The notes under the pieces: generated by a model
What the model saw: the letters and a program-made list of their open reading frames with translations, nothing else
What the model was told of the DNA's origin: nothing
Databases searched by the model: none
Origin: Bacillota bacterium
Lineage (GTDB): Bacteria > Bacillota > Dethiobacteria > DTU022
Reading direction: 5' to 3'
Length of the DNA stretch: 43,342 bases
Assembly: GCA_029552125.1 (NCBI GenBank)
Contig: JAKPEE010000078.1
Span: 1-43,342, forward strand
Part shown: positions 102-8,868 of the stretch, one piece after another
Numbering within the stretch: position 1 is the first letter of the stretch
How the letters are laid out: each line of letters opens with the position of its first letter
Translations under genes and position numbers: made by a program

Positions 102-144
102 GCCAGGCCGAGCTTTTTACAGACAAAATTGGACTTGACCAGAG

Positions 145-345
145 GTGACCTTGAGGGACAATAACGGTATTGTCTTTCTTAATATAAGCGACGATGGCCG
201 GGGGTTTGACCCTGACACCGTCCGCCGGGGTCACGGGCTTAACAACATGGCTGCCCGGGCGCGCCGTAGTGACGGCACCCTGCAGATCATTTCCATCCCG
301 GGCCGGGGCACCACCATTACCGTTCAATTCCAGAAACCACTTTGA
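145..345 (+). pseudogene. Remnant of a sensor histidine kinase (HATPase_c domain only)
   Basis: This 66-codon frame encodes the ATP-binding end of a NarX/DegS-type (HisKA_3 class) sensor kinase. Visible are the G1 box DDGRGFD, a G2-like stretch GHGLNNMAARA, and the terminal GRGTTITVQF strand that normally closes the domain. The phosphoacceptor His region and the N box are absent. An in-frame TGA at 136-138 blocks extension upstream, and the frame begins at a GTG lying inside what should be a beta strand. I infer a truncated, non-functional relic; no response-regulator gene follows within the window. Confidence 0.6.
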
Positions 346-863: not shown

Positions 864-1778
864 ATGAAGTTGACGTTGTCACAGTTGCGGCAAGGTTTTG
901 CCGGTGCCGGTTATATTTGTGATGATAGTGTAGTATTAACGGTATACCTGGCCCTAACTTTGCAAAAACCTCTGCTGATCGAGGGAGCTCCCGGGGTCGG
1001 GAAAACTGAAATGGGAAAAGTCCTGGCCCGGATACTGAATACAACCTTGATTCGTTTGCAGTGTTACGAAGGGCTGGATGAGACCAAAGCCCTTTATGAG
1101 TGGAATTATCAGCGCCAGCTTTTGCGTATTCAAATGAGCAAAGATACAGCCGGGACAGAATTACAGGAAGAAGAACTGTTTTCCGCGCGCTATCTCCTGG
1201 AAAGGCCCCTTTTAAAAGCTATTCAGGCAGAACAAACAGTGGTTTTATTGATTGATGAAGTAGATAAATGCGATCCTGAATTTGAAGCGTTTTTATTTGA
1301 GGTATTATCCGATTTTCAAGTCTCCATACCCGAGCTGGGCACTATCCTGGCCCGCAATATTCCGGTGGTTGTCCTGACCAGTAACAGTGAACGGGAACTG
1401 TCAGACGGGCTAAAAAGGCGCTGCCTGTATCTTTATCTCGATTTTCCAAGTGTGGAGCAGGAAACCCGGATTATCATGGCCAGGGTCCCCGGGGTGGGTG
1501 AACATTTAGCCGAAAAGATAGCCCGGATCATCTCCTTTTTGCGCCGGCAAGATGAAATCAGGAAAAAACCTTCTATTGCCGAAACTCTTGATTGGGCCAG
1601 AGCGCTTTTGGCGTTAAAGCGGGACCGCCTTGATGGAGCAGTGGTGGCGGACACCCTCAATCTGCTGCTTAAAACCCATCATGATCAGCAGCTATTCCAC
1701 AGCCGGATCGGGCCGGAAGGGATCAACAGGGCCCTTTCCCACCCCCACGTGGAGGAGGGCGGTTGCCGATGCCGTTGA
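864..1778 (+). CDS. MoxR-family AAA+ ATPase (CoxD/CbbQ/NorQ-like)
   Basis: A 304-residue AAA+ protein of the MoxR class. The Walker A motif GAPGVGKT lies at residues 41-48, the Walker B motif is LLIDEVDKCDPE, and sensor 1 is VVLTSNSERELSD. The C-terminal lid domain completes the usual MoxR length of about 300. MoxR ATPases work with a VWA-domain partner to remodel or insert metal into enzymes (CoxD/CoxE for CO dehydrogenase, CbbQ/CbbO, NorQ/NorD). The next gene is such a partner and overlaps it, so a two-component chaperone is strongly implied. The start follows CAGGAG at 850-855. Its client is unknown; the third gene, cooC, points to a nickel enzyme. Confidence 0.9.
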   Translation: MKLTLSQLRQGFAGAGYICDDSVVLTVYLALTLQKPLLIEGAPGVGKTEMGKVLARILNTTLIRLQCYEGLDETKALYEWNYQRQLLRIQMSKDTAGTELQEEELFSARYLLERPLLKAIQAEQTVVLLIDEVDKCDPEFEAFLFEVLSDFQVSIPELGTILARNIPVVVLTSNSERELSDGLKRRCLYLYLDFPSVEQETRIIMARVPGVGEHLAEKIARIISFLRRQDEIRKKPSIAETLDWARALLALKRDRLDGAVVADTLNLLLKTHHDQQLFHSRIGPEGINRALSHPHVEEGGCRCR

Positions 1779-3148
1779 TGAGCGCAACTCCTGCGGCACA
1801 ACTGGAAGCGCGCCTGGCCGGTTTTGCAGCCCGCCTGCGCAAGGCGGGCCTGCCTCTTGGTACGGCAGAGCTTCTGGACGCCCTTCGAGCGCTGCAGTAT
1901 GTTGATGTTTCCCAAAAGAGTATGGTAAAGACTGCTCTGAAGGCAACCCTGGCCAAAAACAAGAACCACCAGGCGCTGTTCGAGCGCATATTCGAAGACT
2001 ATTTTATCCCCCCGGAAGAGCACAGCCTTCGTGCCCGGGAAGAAGCCCGCCGCAGGCATAAACTCGAACTGCGCTATGAGGAAGCAGCCCGTTCCCTTCA
2101 ATTTAAGGGTGAAACCCTGAGGCTTTCCACTGAGGAGATGTTGCTTTATACCTCCCTGCCCGAGGAGCAGCGCCGGGGGTTGCTTAATTTTGTCCGCCAG
2201 ACGAATGAGGGTAAAAATGTGGGGCCCCAGTTTCGTCCCCTTCTAGAAACAGTGGTCAAGGGGCATCTCAGCTACTGGCGCAGCCGCATGGAACGGTCTG
2301 AACCCGGTGCCGGCGGCTCCGGTGCAGCCAATTTCGGCGGGGCGGGAAGCGGTTCCGGGGAAAACCGCCTCCGGCAGATGGATATCCGGTTAATTCGCAA
2401 CGATGAGCTTCCCGCCGCGGAAGCCTTGATCTATAAACTTTCACAGAAGCTCGTGCGCAGGCTGACCCGCCGGCGCAAGGCTTCCCGCCGGGGGCCTTTG
2501 GATCTGCGCCGTTCTATTCGCAACAACCTCCATTACGGCGGCTCCATTTTTTGGCTGCGCCACCGGCGAAAACGTCCGCCCAGGCAGCAGCTATTGCTGA
2601 TCTGTGATGTATCCGCTTCCATGCAGCGCTACAGCGTGTTTGTCCTTCAGTTTATATATGGTTTACAGGCGGCGGTACAGAACCTGGAGAGCTTTAGCTT
2701 TTCCGACAACCTGGAGTATCTCTCACCGGCATTGCAAAGACAGAAAGGGCTGGAAAGCCTACTGGCCCGGGTAGTTAATGAAAGCGGTAACTGGGGTGGC
2801 GGCACCAACCTGTCCGCGGCGCTGCAGCAGTTGCTGGGCTCTTACCGGCACCTGCTCAACCGGAGAACCTGCGTGATCATTGTCAGCGATACGAAAACCC
2901 TGGCTCTGGAGCCGTCTTTGCAGGCGCTGCTGCGCTTAAAGCTACTGGTAAAGAAGATATTGTGGTTAAATCCCCTTCCGCCTCAGCAGTGGCGCCTGTA
3001 TCGTTCCGTGGATAAGGTGCGGCAGTTGACAGAGATGTGGCCGTGCCACACTATCGCCGATCTGGAAGCGGTAGTAGCCGGACGAATTATGGCAGACGCA
3101 AATAATTGTTACCCTAACATTGACCAGGAAGGAGGCGCAATTTTATGA
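1769..3148 (+). CDS. VWA-domain protein, CoxE-like partner of the MoxR ATPase
   Basis: A 459-residue protein whose C-terminal half is a von Willebrand factor A domain with an intact MIDAS metal site: DVSAS starting at residue 280, then the Thr of GGGTNLSAAL, then the Asp of VSDTKT. The N-terminal half is helical and Arg-rich, with a Gly/Ser-rich linker (about residues 170-195, GAGGSG and GAGSGSG), as in CoxE-type proteins (PF05762). It overlaps the end of the MoxR gene. I prefer ATG 1769 because GGAGGAGGGCGG at 1751-1762 is correctly spaced. TTG 1763 would be too close, and ATG 1778, in a TGATG overlap, is an alternative. The protein probably bridges the ATPase to its client enzyme. Confidence 0.85.
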   Translation: MPLMSATPAAQLEARLAGFAARLRKAGLPLGTAELLDALRALQYVDVSQKSMVKTALKATLAKNKNHQALFERIFEDYFIPPEEHSLRAREEARRRHKLELRYEEAARSLQFKGETLRLSTEEMLLYTSLPEEQRRGLLNFVRQTNEGKNVGPQFRPLLETVVKGHLSYWRSRMERSEPGAGGSGAANFGGAGSGSGENRLRQMDIRLIRNDELPAAEALIYKLSQKLVRRLTRRRKASRRGPLDLRRSIRNNLHYGGSIFWLRHRRKRPPRQQLLLICDVSASMQRYSVFVLQFIYGLQAAVQNLESFSFSDNLEYLSPALQRQKGLESLLARVVNESGNWGGGTNLSAALQQLLGSYRHLLNRRTCVIIVSDTKTLALEPSLQALLRLKLLVKKILWLNPLPPQQWRLYRSVDKVRQLTEMWPCHTIADLEAVVAGRIMADANNCYPNIDQEGGAIL

Positions 3149-3900
3149 CCAAGTGTATCGCCGTGGCGGGAAAAGGCGGCACCGGCAAGACCACGCTGAC
3201 GGCTCTGCTGGTGCGTTATTTACTCCGGAAGCGGCCGGGAAAATCCATTCTGGCGGTGGACGCCGACGCCAATGCCAACCTCAATGAGGCCCTGGGGCTA
3301 AAGGTAATGGAAACCATAGGGACAATTCTTGAAGAAACCAAAAAACCCAATGCTGTACCCACCGGGATGACCAAAGATATTTTTATTGAGTACCGCCTGA
3401 GCAGGGCCCTGGTAGAAACAGATCATTATGACCTGGTAGTGATGGGCAACCCCCAGGGGCCTGGTTGCTACTGTTATCCCAATGATCTGTTAAAGAGACA
3501 CCTGGAAAGATTGGCCAAGAATTATGATTATATGCTGGTGGACAACGAAGCGGGCCTGGAACATCTCAGCCGGAAACTTTTACCCAAGGCTGACCTGTTA
3601 ATAGTGTGCAGCGATACCTCTGTCCGTGGCATCCGCTCGGCCAGGCGGGTGCGGGAGATTGTTGAAAATGTAAAAATTGAAGTGGGGCGGATGGGACTGG
3701 TCGTTTGCCGGGGACGCGGCGGTGAAGCGGAGCAGTTAGAAAAAGAGATTAAAGATAGCGGCTTGAACCTGTTCGGTGAACTGCCTTATGACCCCCTGAT
3801 CGAAGAGTATGATCTGGCCGGAAAACCGTTGCTCGACCTTCCCGATGATGCGGTGGCGGTGGCGGCATCGGCCCTGCTGTTTGACGGCCTGTCCCTTTAA
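3145..3900 (+). CDS. cooC: CooC-type nickel-insertion ATPase (CO dehydrogenase maturation)
   Basis: A 251-residue P-loop ATPase of the MinD/CooC family. The deviant Walker A motif GKGGTGKTT has its signature Lys at residue 10. CooC proteins dimerise and bind nickel through a CxC pair and help load the C-cluster of Ni-CO dehydrogenase. The pair is present here as Cys108-Tyr-Cys110 within GPGCYCYPN, which separates it from ordinary MinD or ArsA ATPases. Its ATG overlaps the stop of the VWA gene (ATGA), with GGAAGGAGG upstream, so translation is coupled. No cooS/acsA gene lies in the window. The link to CO dehydrogenase is family knowledge; joint action with MoxR-VWA is inference from the operon. 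Confidence 0.87.
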   Translation: MTKCIAVAGKGGTGKTTLTALLVRYLLRKRPGKSILAVDADANANLNEALGLKVMETIGTILEETKKPNAVPTGMTKDIFIEYRLSRALVETDHYDLVVMGNPQGPGCYCYPNDLLKRHLERLAKNYDYMLVDNEAGLEHLSRKLLPKADLLIVCSDTSVRGIRSARRVREIVENVKIEVGRMGLVVCRGRGGEAEQLEKEIKDSGLNLFGELPYDPLIEEYDLAGKPLLDLPDDAVAVAASALLFDGLSL

Positions 3901-3936: not shown

Positions 3937-4065
3937 GGATTCCTTCTTTAGCAGGCGGCTGCGCCAGGCGGCGTGCGGTGAAACGGGCGCTGCAGCCATG
4001 GCGTATAGAGCCGGCTTATGGATAAATTTCCGCCTACTGGTAATATTTTCGGGGAGGGCCGAGAA

Positions 4066-4713
4066 ATGAAATTTAAAGACCGCCGCCATGCCGGAAAATT
4101 GCTGGCGGAAAAACTAACGGCATACCGGGGGAAAAACCCGTTGATCCTGGCACTGCCCAGAGGTGGGGTAGTGGTGGCGGAACCAATTTGGGATTTTACC
4201 GGCGGCGACCTCGATTTGATTATCACGCGCAAAATAGGGGCGCCGTACCAGGAAGAACTGGCCATCGGTGCGGTTACGGGGGACGGATTTGTTTTGTTGA
4301 ACCATAAACTGGCGGAGCAGCTGGGTGTGTCTCCATCTTTCATTGAGCGGGCGGCTGCATCAGAACAGGCGGAGATACAACGTCGCCTGACCCTTTATCG
4401 CGGTCAAAGGCCATATCCTTCGTTAAAAGGCAGAGTGGTCATCGTTGTCGATGACGGGGTGGCCACGGGATTTACCGTCAAGGCGGCGTTGCAAAGTTTG
4501 CAGCGGCATGAACCGGCGGAGCTGGTCCTGGCCGTTCCGGTGGGCCCGCCGGAGACCCTGAGGGAGTTGCAGGCGGAGGTAGACCGGCTTTACTGTCTCG
4601 AGTCTCCGGCCTGGTTTGCAGCGGTAGGCCAGTTCTATGATGATTTCCGCCAGCTTGATGACGCCCAGGTGATCCAGATTATGAACCGCGCCTTTGCCGG
4701 CTTAACAGAATGA
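4066..4713 (+). CDS. Predicted phosphoribosyltransferase-fold protein
   Basis: A 215-residue member of the type I PRTase superfamily. [14 protein letters not shown] and [21 protein letters not shown] are typical of the stand-alone 'predicted phosphoribosyltransferase' group, and [19 protein letters not shown] is the PRPP-binding loop. The substrate is not known, and family members occur without purine genes nearby, as here. ATG 4066 is chosen because GGGGAGGG (4051-4058) precedes it and the conserved protein begins at [10 protein letters not shown]. Extending to ATG 4018 would add 16 unconserved residues. fabZ starts 19 bases after its stop, which suggests co-transcription. Confidence 0.75.
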
Positions 4714-4732
4714 TCGGGAAGGATGCTTGGTT

Positions 4733-5185
4733 ATGGATGTTTTAAACGCCAAAGAACTTCTGGCCCTGTTGCCTCATCGACATCCGTTTCTTCTAGTAGA
4801 TCGAATCACCGGCCTTGTCCCTGGAGAGCGGGCTTCGGGATTTAAAAATGTTACGCTGAATGAGCCTTATTTTCAGGGGCATTTCCCCGGTGAACCGGTT
4901 ATGCCGGGTGTCCTGATTATCGAAGCGCTGGCCCAGGTAGGCGCCGTAGCCGTGTTGAGCCTGGAGCAGAACCGGGGCAAACTGGCCTTATTTGCCGGGG
5001 TTAACCGTTTCAGGTTCAAGCAGATCGTGCGTCCAGGAGATCGCCTTGAACTTTCCGTGACTCTGACCGGGAGGCGCGGCGACATCGGCAAGGGTGACGG
5101 TGAAGCACGGGTGGACGGCAAACTGGTTGCCTCGGGTGAACTCTGGTTTGCCCTTACTGACCCTGGAAAAGAAAATGGCAATTGA
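4733..5185 (+). CDS. fabZ: (3R)-hydroxyacyl-ACP dehydratase FabZ
   Basis: A 150-residue hot-dog-fold dehydratase of type II fatty acid synthesis that converts 3-hydroxyacyl-ACP to trans-2-enoyl-ACP in the cytosol. It has the N-terminal [14 protein letters not shown] block and the active-site segment [16 protein letters not shown], with the catalytic His at residue 50 and Glu at 64. ATG 4733 follows GGGAAGGA (4716-4723) with good spacing; TTG 4727, two codons earlier, is less likely. It stands apart from any other fab gene. Its stop codon overlaps the -35 box of the metK promoter. Confidence 0.93.
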
Positions 5186-5347: not shown

Positions 5348-5376
5348 AAAACCTCTTCAGAGAGGTTTTATTTTTT
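5348..5376 (+). terminator. Riboswitch-controlled intrinsic terminator (metK leader)
   Basis: AAAACCTCT (5348-5356) pairs with AGAGGTTTT (5361-5369) in a 9-bp stem with a TCAG loop, followed by ATTTTTT. Its 5' arm competes with the 3' side of P1, so termination depends on SAM. The metK ribosome binding site ACAGGAGG lies directly after it. Confidence 0.9.
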
Positions 5377-6584: not shown

Positions 6585-6666
6585 AATGATAAATCTTGTG
6601 GAAAATAAAGGATTTGCCGCTGCTCCGTTGAATTAGGTCTGTAAGAAAAATAAGGAGTGTAAATTT

Positions 6667-8868
6667 CTGGAGCAGGTAGAAGGTGTTCTGGAAAAAATTA
6701 AATACTATAACGAAGAAAGCTCGTACATGGTCGGCAGCCTGCGCTGCCAGGACGGGCAAAGGGTAACTATTGTTGGCAATCTGCCCCGGTTTCAGGAGGG
6801 AGAAAGCCTGATCATCTCCGGAGAGTGGCAGCTGCACCGGCGCTATGGCCGCCAGGTGGTAGTGCAACAGTGGGAGCGCCTGATCCCGGCTACGCCCGCC
6901 GGGCTTACGCGCTACCTTTCTTCAGGACTGATTAAAGGCATCGGCCCGGTGACGGCCAGGCGTATTGTCAAACAATTTGGCTTGCAAGCCCTGGAGATTA
7001 TGGAAAAAGAGCCGGAGCGCCTCCGCGAAGTGGAAGGTATCGGCGAAAAAAAAGCGGCGCAAATATTGGAAAGCTTCAACCGCTACAAGGATTTGCAAAA
7101 CGTGATGGTCTTTCTCCAGGGATGTGGCATCGGCATCAGCCATGCCATGCGCCTGTATAAGCAGTATGGCCCCCAGGCCATTGACCGGGTTAAAGAAAAC
7201 CCTTACCGGCTGGCCGGCGAAGTCTACGGAATTGGTTTCAAAACAGCGGACCGGATCGCCCGCCGCATGGGTTTGCCTGAAGATTCCCCGGAACGGGTTA
7301 AGGCGGCCATTATTTTCACGCTGATCCAGGAGGCGAACCAGGGGCATGTCTGCCTGCCCCTGGATATGCTTTTTGAAAAGGTAAAAGGGTTGCTCGACAC
7401 GGATACATCCGGGCGGGCTGCCTACCCGCTGCAGGAGCAGCTTCAAATCCTGGAGCGGGAAAATCATGTTTTTTGTGACCGGCCGGCCGGGACAGATGTC
7501 GTCTATTATGCCCCGTTCTATCATGCCGAGCTGGGCGTAGCCCGCCGGTTAAAGCAGCTTTTAGAGCCCAGGCGGCAGTGGGATGCCGGAGAGATGAAAA
7601 GCGCCCTGGAAACGGTGGCCGCTACCGGCGCCCGATTGAACGCCGAGCAACTCCAGGTGCTGGAAAAGTCGATGCAAAGCGGGGTGCTGGTCGTCACCGG
7701 TGGGCCGGGAACCGGCAAGACGACAACGATCAAAGCGTTACTGGCACTGTTCCAGTCCCTAAAGCAAAAGGTTGTCCTGGCCGCCCCCACCGGCCGGGCG
7801 GCCAAGAGGGTGACAGAGGCTACCGGTGGGGAGGCGTACACCATCCATCGCCTTCTGGAATATACCTTTTCTGAAGGGGAAGGTTTCCGATTTCAGCGCA
7901 ACGAGGCAAACCCGGTGGAGGCCCAGGTAATTATTATCGACGAGGCTTCCATGGTCGACCTGTTGCTGATGTATAACCTGGTTAAAGCGATCCCCCCCGG
8001 CTGCCGCCTGGTTATGGTCGGAGACGTGGATCAGCTTCCGGCAGTAGGGGCCGGAAATGTGCTCAAAGATCTAATCCAGGCGGGCACAATTCCCTGTGTG
8101 CGCCTGCAGCATATTTTTCGCCAGGCCCGGGAGAGCATGATTATTGTTAATGCCCACCGGGTCAACCAGGGTGAAATGCCTTTTTTAAACAGGAAAGAGA
8201 AAGATTTTTTCTTTATTGCCGAGGAGGATCCGGAACGTGTAGCCGGCCTGGTGGTCCAGCTTGCCTGCGCAAGGATCCCGCGCTTTGGCCCTTATGACCC
8301 CGTTCACGATATTCAGGTGATTACACCGATGCGGCGTACCGCGGCGGGCGTGGAGCAGTTAAATATCCTGCTCCAGAAAACGCTCAATCCGGCGCAAAAA
8401 CATAAACCGGAAATCAGCGTCAAGGGGACCGTATTCCGCCTGGGCGACAAAGTAATGCAGGTGCGCAATAATTATCAGAAAGAGGTCTACAACGGCGATA
8501 TGGGCTTGATCTCGGAGCTGGATCTGGAAGAAGGAGAACTGGTAGTCACTTTTCGAGATTCAGCCGCAGATCGCCCGGTTGTTTATGATTTTAGCGAACT
8601 GGATGAACTGGTTCTGGCCTATGCTGTTTCGGTGCATAAAAGCCAGGGCAGTGAATATCCCGTGGTGATTTTGCCTGTCATTACCCAGCATTACCTGTTG
8701 CTGCAGCGCAACCTCCTTTATACCGGTATTACCCGGGCCCGTAAAATGGCGGTGCTGGTCGGGACCAAAAAAGCCCTGGCCATCGCGGTGCGCAACAATA
8801 AAGCTGAAGAACGCTACAGTTATCTGGACAGAAGGCTGCGTCTGGAAAGCGGTGCCAGTGGCTCCTGA
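6667..8868 (+). CDS. recD2: RecD2-type ATP-dependent helicase (CTG start proposed)
   Basis: A superfamily 1B 5'-3' DNA helicase not associated with RecBC. It has an N-terminal OB-like region and tandem helix-hairpin-helix motifs (GLIKGIGPVTARRI, EVEGIGEKKAAQI). The helicase core contains Walker A GGPGTGKTTT, Walker B IIIDEASMVD, and motif VI near LLYTGITRARK. Family N-termini begin with a block like VEGVLEKIKYYNEES, encoded here from 6667. No ATG, GTG or TTG is available between the in-frame TAG at 6634 and ATG 6727, and AAGGAG (6652-6657) lies 9 bases before CTG 6667. I therefore take CTG as the start (733 residues). The ATG at 6727 would remove 20 conserved residues. Confidence 0.9.
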   Translation: MEQVEGVLEKIKYYNEESSYMVGSLRCQDGQRVTIVGNLPRFQEGESLIISGEWQLHRRYGRQVVVQQWERLIPATPAGLTRYLSSGLIKGIGPVTARRIVKQFGLQALEIMEKEPERLREVEGIGEKKAAQILESFNRYKDLQNVMVFLQGCGIGISHAMRLYKQYGPQAIDRVKENPYRLAGEVYGIGFKTADRIARRMGLPEDSPERVKAAIIFTLIQEANQGHVCLPLDMLFEKVKGLLDTDTSGRAAYPLQEQLQILERENHVFCDRPAGTDVVYYAPFYHAELGVARRLKQLLEPRRQWDAGEMKSALETVAATGARLNAEQLQVLEKSMQSGVLVVTGGPGTGKTTTIKALLALFQSLKQKVVLAAPTGRAAKRVTEATGGEAYTIHRLLEYTFSEGEGFRFQRNEANPVEAQVIIIDEASMVDLLLMYNLVKAIPPGCRLVMVGDVDQLPAVGAGNVLKDLIQAGTIPCVRLQHIFRQARESMIIVNAHRVNQGEMPFLNRKEKDFFFIAEEDPERVAGLVVQLACARIPRFGPYDPVHDIQVITPMRRTAAGVEQLNILLQKTLNPAQKHKPEISVKGTVFRLGDKVMQVRNNYQKEVYNGDMGLISELDLEEGELVVTFRDSAADRPVVYDFSELDELVLAYAVSVHKSQGSEYPVVILPVITQHYLLLQRNLLYTGITRARKMAVLVGTKKALAIAVRNNKAEERYSYLDRRLRLESGASGS

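Follow-up and report, generated by a model that had tools for sequence, protein, structure and literature searches.

Which enzyme is served by a MoxR-type AAA+ ATPase and a von Willebrand factor A (VWA) protein that are encoded in one operon with a nickel ATPase of the MinD/CooC family? The question is raised by a stretch of 43,342 nucleotides (the window) that runs from base 1 of contig JAKPEE010000078.1 (C37) of the Bacillota bacterium assembly GCA_029552125.1, a draft genome of 2.56 Mb in 159 contigs and 87% complete. At 864-3900, three overlapping frames on the forward strand encode a MoxR AAA+ ATPase, a CoxE-type VWA protein and a MinD/CooC-family ATPase (Table 1). A preliminary description of this DNA had taken the third gene for CooC, the nickel ATPase of Ni-Fe carbon monoxide dehydrogenase (CODH). 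Judged from sequence comparisons, it is with near certainty of the AcsF type, and the operon is probably a maturation module for the nickel A-cluster of acetyl-CoA synthase (ACS, AcsB), in which MoxR-VWA would carry out remodelling and AcsF would deliver nickel.

The closest solved structure to the third protein is CooC1 (3KJE, E 6e-15), which belongs to the same superfamily and shares its CxC motif. Both nickel-site cysteines pointed out in the preliminary description are intact, with C108, Y109 and C110 each conserved at 1.00 in 133 orthologues (scoring above 195 bits, other CooC-family proteins below 140 bits). Fold family, deviant Walker A and CYC site are likewise those of AcsF, the ACS nickel insertase, and the deviant Walker A is, like the CYC site, intact and conserved. 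In about 40 fetched loci of other Bacillota the orthologue lies within the acs operon, usually in the order acsA-acsB-acsC-acsV-[orthologue]-acsD-acsE, that is, between acsV (orf7) and acsD; Loke and Lindahl (2003) are said to have located acsF between acsC and acsD, after orf7. In a tree of 110 proteins, one fully supported branch separated the CooC proteins encoded next to acsA, with CooC1 (3KJE) among them, from the AcsF-type proteins, and the window protein fell outside the CooC clade. CooC proteins are about 30-35% identical to it and differ in motif context, GGxxCxCxE in those encoded next to acsA versus GxPxGxGCYC in the AcsF type. In one genome (G144), very probably that of Carboxydothermus hydrogenoformans, the product of the gene upstream of acsA (L148:576-1352) is identical to the crystallised CooC1 over 254 of 254 residues. 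The second CooC-family gene in that acs cluster is orthologous to the window gene and, by elimination, presumably cooC2, which Gregg et al. (2016) reportedly named AcsF. The names AcsF and CooC are used inconsistently in published annotations, the gene before acsA being sometimes called 'acsF' and the internal one 'cooC': the gene order of M. mulderi was published as acsFABCV-cooC-acsDE (PMC4882953), and the acs-internal and upstream genes are labelled differently again in PMC8671834.

On contig C66, the inspected part of the genome's own acs operon runs cooC-acsA-acsB-acsC-acsD, and no AcsF was found in it; this cooC and the window gene are the two CooC-family genes found in the assembly. Since this CODH/ACS operon holds CooC as a separate gene and, as far as inspected, lacks AcsF, the window gene is the relocated AcsF. 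It sits outside the acs operon, sharing an operon with moxR and vwa; location in the acs operon is typical of AcsF and is not a defining property of the protein. The version given in the preliminary description, a CooC-type nickel ATPase acting with MoxR-VWA to mature Ni-Fe CODH in trans, would agree with the fold family, the CxC site and the presence of CODH in the genome; however, given the synteny, the tree, the phyletic pattern described below and the separate CooC next to acsA, a CooC identity was rejected and this version is very improbable. In three genomes (G360, G446, G425; L161, L162, L164) an AcsF paralogue about 47% identical to the window protein was observed outside the acs operon, carrying the motif RQEGCYCFPN and adjoining a conserved gene set.

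Occurrence was compared in a sample of 399 genomes of the phylum. An AcsF-type gene was present in 111 of 113 genomes with ACS and in none of 45 CODH-only genomes, the latter being partly a matter of definition, since 'CODH-only' denotes CODH without ACS and without AcsF; seven of the 52 CODH-bearing genomes without an ACS match do have AcsF. Eight genomes have AcsF and no ACS match, one of them (G425) without a CODH match either. In four of the eight (G342, G365, G425, G430), AcsF is flanked by acs genes where a contig ends; ACS is therefore probably there but interrupted by the assembly, and these were discarded as cases of AcsF without ACS. So was G031, in which CODH is present and a truncated acsB stands at the end of a contig. 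Two genomes have ACS matches (PF03598, 187-191 bits, frames of about 740 aa; G050:C61:75810-76268 and G052:C31:88990-89454) with CODH not above the cut-off, no AcsF and no MoxR-VWA orthologue; these may possibly represent CODH-less ACS that is matured in some other way. Small proteins of 238-246 aa with an ACS-beta domain (PF03598, 41 bits) were also observed in six genomes (G042, G045, G046, G021, G032, G033; L247:2750-4303, L246:408-1867, L245, L248, L249, L250), directly followed by a third CooC-like ATPase with the motif DGCYCQVN; in L247 the gene is embedded in a cluster that encodes D components of 2-hydroxyglutaryl-CoA dehydratase as well as BadF-type activases. By sequence, the small protein resembles a self-contained miniature of an A-cluster protein, paired with a nickel ATPase of its own.

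Outside the window's own class, with a threshold of 150 bits for VWA and with one split gene included, MoxR-VWA orthologues occurred in 78 of the 121 genomes that have ACS or AcsF, in 2 of 45 CODH-only genomes and in 1 of the 233 others. For genomes with ACS or AcsF against CODH-only genomes this gives a Fisher p of 3e-13, a statistic that ignores shared ancestry, and the three exceptions are genomes of 80-84% completeness. Wide occurrence without a nickel enzyme, which had been named beforehand as speaking against a maturation role, is thus not what the 233 genomes without CODH/ACS display. Two contrasts within genera point the same way: G014 is without ACS, AcsF and VWA and G015 has all three, and G212 (CODH only) is without them and G408 has them. 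In terms of gene content, the link between MoxR-VWA and ACS appears well supported statistically.

Within the class to which the window belongs (Dethiobacteria), a VWA match (E 1e-10) was obtained in 73 of the 98 genomes, and 68 of these were classed as orthologues. In 55 class genomes (54 by script, plus L031, the start of which was over-extended) vwa and acsF are adjacent on the same strand with a median gap of about 28 bp and moxR upstream, and since this adjacency is common to so many genomes it is not due to chance. The triplet is kept across several families of the class and is therefore not confined to close relatives, the other outcome that the preliminary description had counted against itself. 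In family f8, AcsF is divergent and upstream of moxR (L064, L066, L067, L167); a branch without a VWA match (G071, G073, G082) has kept AcsF within the acs operon (L229, L234, L144); and in two genomes (G016, G029) AcsF is kept as a pair with a phosphoribosyltransferase gene, with moxR-vwa gone (L215, L217). From these arrangements it appears that AcsF left the acs operon within the class and became tied to moxR-vwa. Class genomes with AcsF and no VWA include contig-edge cases (G024, G041, G097). Outside the class, an independent linkage to acs genes exists in G347 (L195), in the order moxR-vwa-DUF3786-cooC-acsA-acsB-acsC-acsV-acsF-acsD, and in a genome identified as Carboxydothermus moxR-vwa is unlinked (L241). 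A nickel transporter beside moxR-vwa in the Carboxydothermus genus was considered and not used, as the ABC genes are dipeptide/nickel-like and not clearly nickel.

The first two proteins have the features of a MoxR/VWA chaperone pair. Their genes are adjacent, and the Walker A and B motifs of MoxR and the DxSxS-T-D metal ion-dependent adhesion site (MIDAS) of VWA are intact and conserved in 93-96 orthologues: in MoxR, G41 and G44-T48 of Walker A are invariant and P43 is conserved at 0.96, and in VWA, D282, S284 and S286, completed by T348 and D376, are all conserved at 1.00. MoxR orthologues adjoining VWA are 54-91% identical to the window MoxR. The VWA protein consists of an N-terminal part, a low-complexity linker at about residues 178-205 and a C-terminal VWA domain; its family profile matched none of the PDB sequences, and a structure prediction from two sequences (window and L007) was discarded at a predicted local distance difference test score (pLDDT) of 42.6. 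The nearest named families are MadB and MadC (NF047784, NF047783), the window MoxR matching MadB and 21 of 21 scanned VWA proteins matching MadC; membership was rejected, however, as the window proteins score well under the curated NCBIfam cut-offs (MoxR 270 of 475 bits, VWA 102 of 600 bits).

NorQ-NorD, CbbQ-CbbO, CoxD-CoxE and RavA-ViaA share with the window pair the adjacent or overlapping genes, the intact Walker and MIDAS motifs, the C-terminal VWA domain behind an N-terminal part and, as proposed here, a role in remodelling metal or active sites. They differ in the presumed client and in that the window pair has a MinD-type nickel ATPase as partner and a VWA sequence that matched no solved structure. 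CoxD and CoxE are encoded with coxMSL; no cox genes are among the identified neighbours of the window pair, Mo-Cu CODH not having been searched for genome-wide. MoxR-VWA pairs such as NorQD are known chaperones of metal insertion (PMC13036017, PMC9976466). In NorQD, a finger of the VWA protein inserts into the pore of the AAA+ ring; the linker of NorD is stretched by a rotation that ATP drives, and this stretching was proposed to open up the client so that metal can be inserted (PMC13036017). The matching parts, namely AAA+ ring protein, MIDAS, N-terminal part and linker, are all present here.

As had been described, there is no CODH gene beside the operon; CODH/ACS is encoded on the separate contig C66, and with the structural genes elsewhere the module would act in trans. 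This much of the earlier proposal of a trans-acting module for CODH/ACS or another nickel enzyme stands, together with the tie to a nickel C1-enzyme. CODH alone as the client does not, since the third gene is of the AcsF type and not CooC, which makes the A-cluster of ACS, or the CODH/ACS complex, the likely client. AcsF reportedly binds ACS and nickel, and addition of ATP activates ACS (Gregg 2016). In the proposed mechanism, AcsF would bind nickel via Cys108 and Cys110 and insert it into apo-ACS on ATP hydrolysis, and a MoxR hexamer would form an AAA+ remodelling complex with the VWA protein. The client, ACS or the CODH/ACS complex, would be gripped by the MIDAS and the N-terminal part of VWA, and ATP-driven twisting would open or reset it, so that AcsF may load nickel or a wrong metal may leave. 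The formation of a complex, the sequence of events and the remodelling itself are inferred by analogy with NorQD and CbbQO and from AcsF biochemistry. That MoxR, VWA and AcsF form one physical machine, in which the motor prises ACS open and the MinD-type ATPase loads two nickels, is a tentative extension of this scheme and may well be wrong.

Several observations weigh against an A-cluster maturation role. The main weakness is that 43 of the 121 genomes with ACS or AcsF are without a MoxR-VWA orthologue, hence the pair is not universally needed; four genomes (G053, G062, G064, G065) keep AcsF at the fabZ-metK site with no VWA match in the genome. Purified AcsF with MgATP and nickel is reported to activate recombinant ACS without a motor (Gregg 2016). 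The 43 genomes without the pair and the activity of AcsF alone in vitro could both be accommodated if MoxR-VWA served to remove wrong metals or acted when nickel is scarce. Moreover, moxR-vwa is mostly unlinked to acs genes outside the class, the co-occurrence test takes no account of phylogeny, and many of the genomes are incomplete metagenome-assembled genomes. Finally, in family f12 (L207, G101) moxR-vwa directly follows the gene of the CODH catalytic subunit (802 bits) on the same strand, and the coordinates in G147 fit this order too. Together with G347, where moxR-vwa heads the entire acs operon, this would suit an action on CODH (C-cluster) or on the whole CODH/ACS complex, in its assembly or conformational switching, with AcsF merely co-regulated; yet just 2 of 45 genomes with CODH and no ACS or AcsF have the pair, and its partner gene in the class is AcsF and not CooC, which leaves this alternative unlikely.

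Because most of the linked genomes belong to one class, the moxR-vwa-acsF linkage could go back to one event. The pair might then serve another enzyme of Wood-Ljungdahl organisms (formate dehydrogenase, hydrogenase or a corrinoid protein), with AcsF placed beside it by a single move in the ancestor of the class and the arrangement passed on by descent. AcsF does stay by the phosphoribosyltransferase gene, fabZ and metK after the loss of moxR-vwa (L215, L217), the stretch fetched from three class members (L054, L055, L059) contains moxR-vwa but not AcsF, and of the Wood-Ljungdahl genes the co-occurrence profiles covered CODH, ACS and AcsF. We nevertheless consider this explanation rather improbable, as the linkage holds across several families although the spacing differs and, in f8, the orientation too (L066, L167), and as the acs linkage in G347 is independent. 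A-cluster maturation remains the preferred role.

The preliminary reading of three coupled frames was borne out by the open reading frames, including the ATGA at 3145-3148 that is shared by the vwa stop and the start of the third gene. The moxR stop (1776-1778) falls within the vwa frame. The likeliest vwa start by sequence is the ATG at 1769, preceded about 10 nt upstream by GGAGGAGG at about 1752-1758, inside the end of moxR; other possible starts are TTG 1763 and ATG 1778. A closely related locus with a VWA protein 87% identical to that of the window exists on another Bacillota contig. The conserved block runs on past the third gene with a phosphoribosyltransferase-family gene, which stays beside AcsF even where moxR-vwa is lost, and then fabZ/metK; fabZ is a conserved neighbour that is not thought to be functionally part of the module. 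Among weak-evidence matches, no terminator-like site was found between the third gene, the phosphoribosyltransferase gene and fabZ, and one was found at 5348-5369, after fabZ and before metK.

Table 1. Positions of the operon, its motifs and the downstream genes in the window.
Feature	Position	Strand	Remarks	Basis
MoxR-type AAA+ ATPase	864..1778	+	304 aa	PF07728 AAA_5, E 6e-12
MoxR Walker A, GAPGVGKT	984..1007	+	residues 41-48	93-sequence alignment
CoxE-type VWA protein	1769..3148	+	alternative start TTG 1763	PF05762 VWA_CoxE, E 7e-41
VWA MIDAS, DVSAS	2606..2620	+	residues 282-286, counted from 1763	96-orthologue alignment
AcsF-type MinD/CooC-family nickel ATPase	3145..3900	+	251 aa	synteny and tree
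CYC nickel-site motif, Cys108-Tyr-Cys110	3466..3474	+	context GxPxGxGCYC	133-orthologue alignment
Phosphoribosyltransferase-family protein	4018..4713	+	start possibly ATG 4066	PF00156, E 5e-18
fabZ	4727..5185	+		NF000582, 177 bits (above cut-off)

Two observations lie apart from the operon. At the contig start (window 120-345), the frames are disturbed and carry a remnant similar to the ATPase part at the C-terminus of a sensor histidine kinase (GRGFDP...GLNNM). Elsewhere in the genome (G000:C131:28635-30247; L075:7331-8275 and 6621-7331, minus strand), a prismane-family gene is split into two overlapping frames; it probably encodes a hybrid cluster protein, the split being a frameshift or an assembly error.

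In the Wood-Ljungdahl pathway ACS forms the carbon-fixing end, and its A-cluster is often assembled incompletely in heterologous hosts. In the searchable literature, outside which most subscription journals lie, no paper was found that treats CooC, MoxR and VWA together; of the papers found there for MoxR and the Wood-Ljungdahl pathway, none is on this subject as far as titles and abstracts tell, and a 2026 survey of CODH gene neighbourhoods mentions neither MoxR nor AAA nor von Willebrand. An accessory pair that tracks ACS and not CODH is a concrete candidate for a missing maturation factor, and ACS a likely new client for the poorly understood MoxR-VWA family; in addition, a simple motif and phyletic rule tells AcsF from CooC. 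Should the three proteins indeed form one machine, a nickel enzyme would for the first time be known to have a MoxR-VWA chaperone; a large share of the ACS-bearing Bacillota would use it, and the usual placement of its genes apart from the acs operon would explain why it has been missed so far. The findings point to MoxR-VWA as an unrecognised helper in the building of ACS, an ancient CO2-fixing enzyme.

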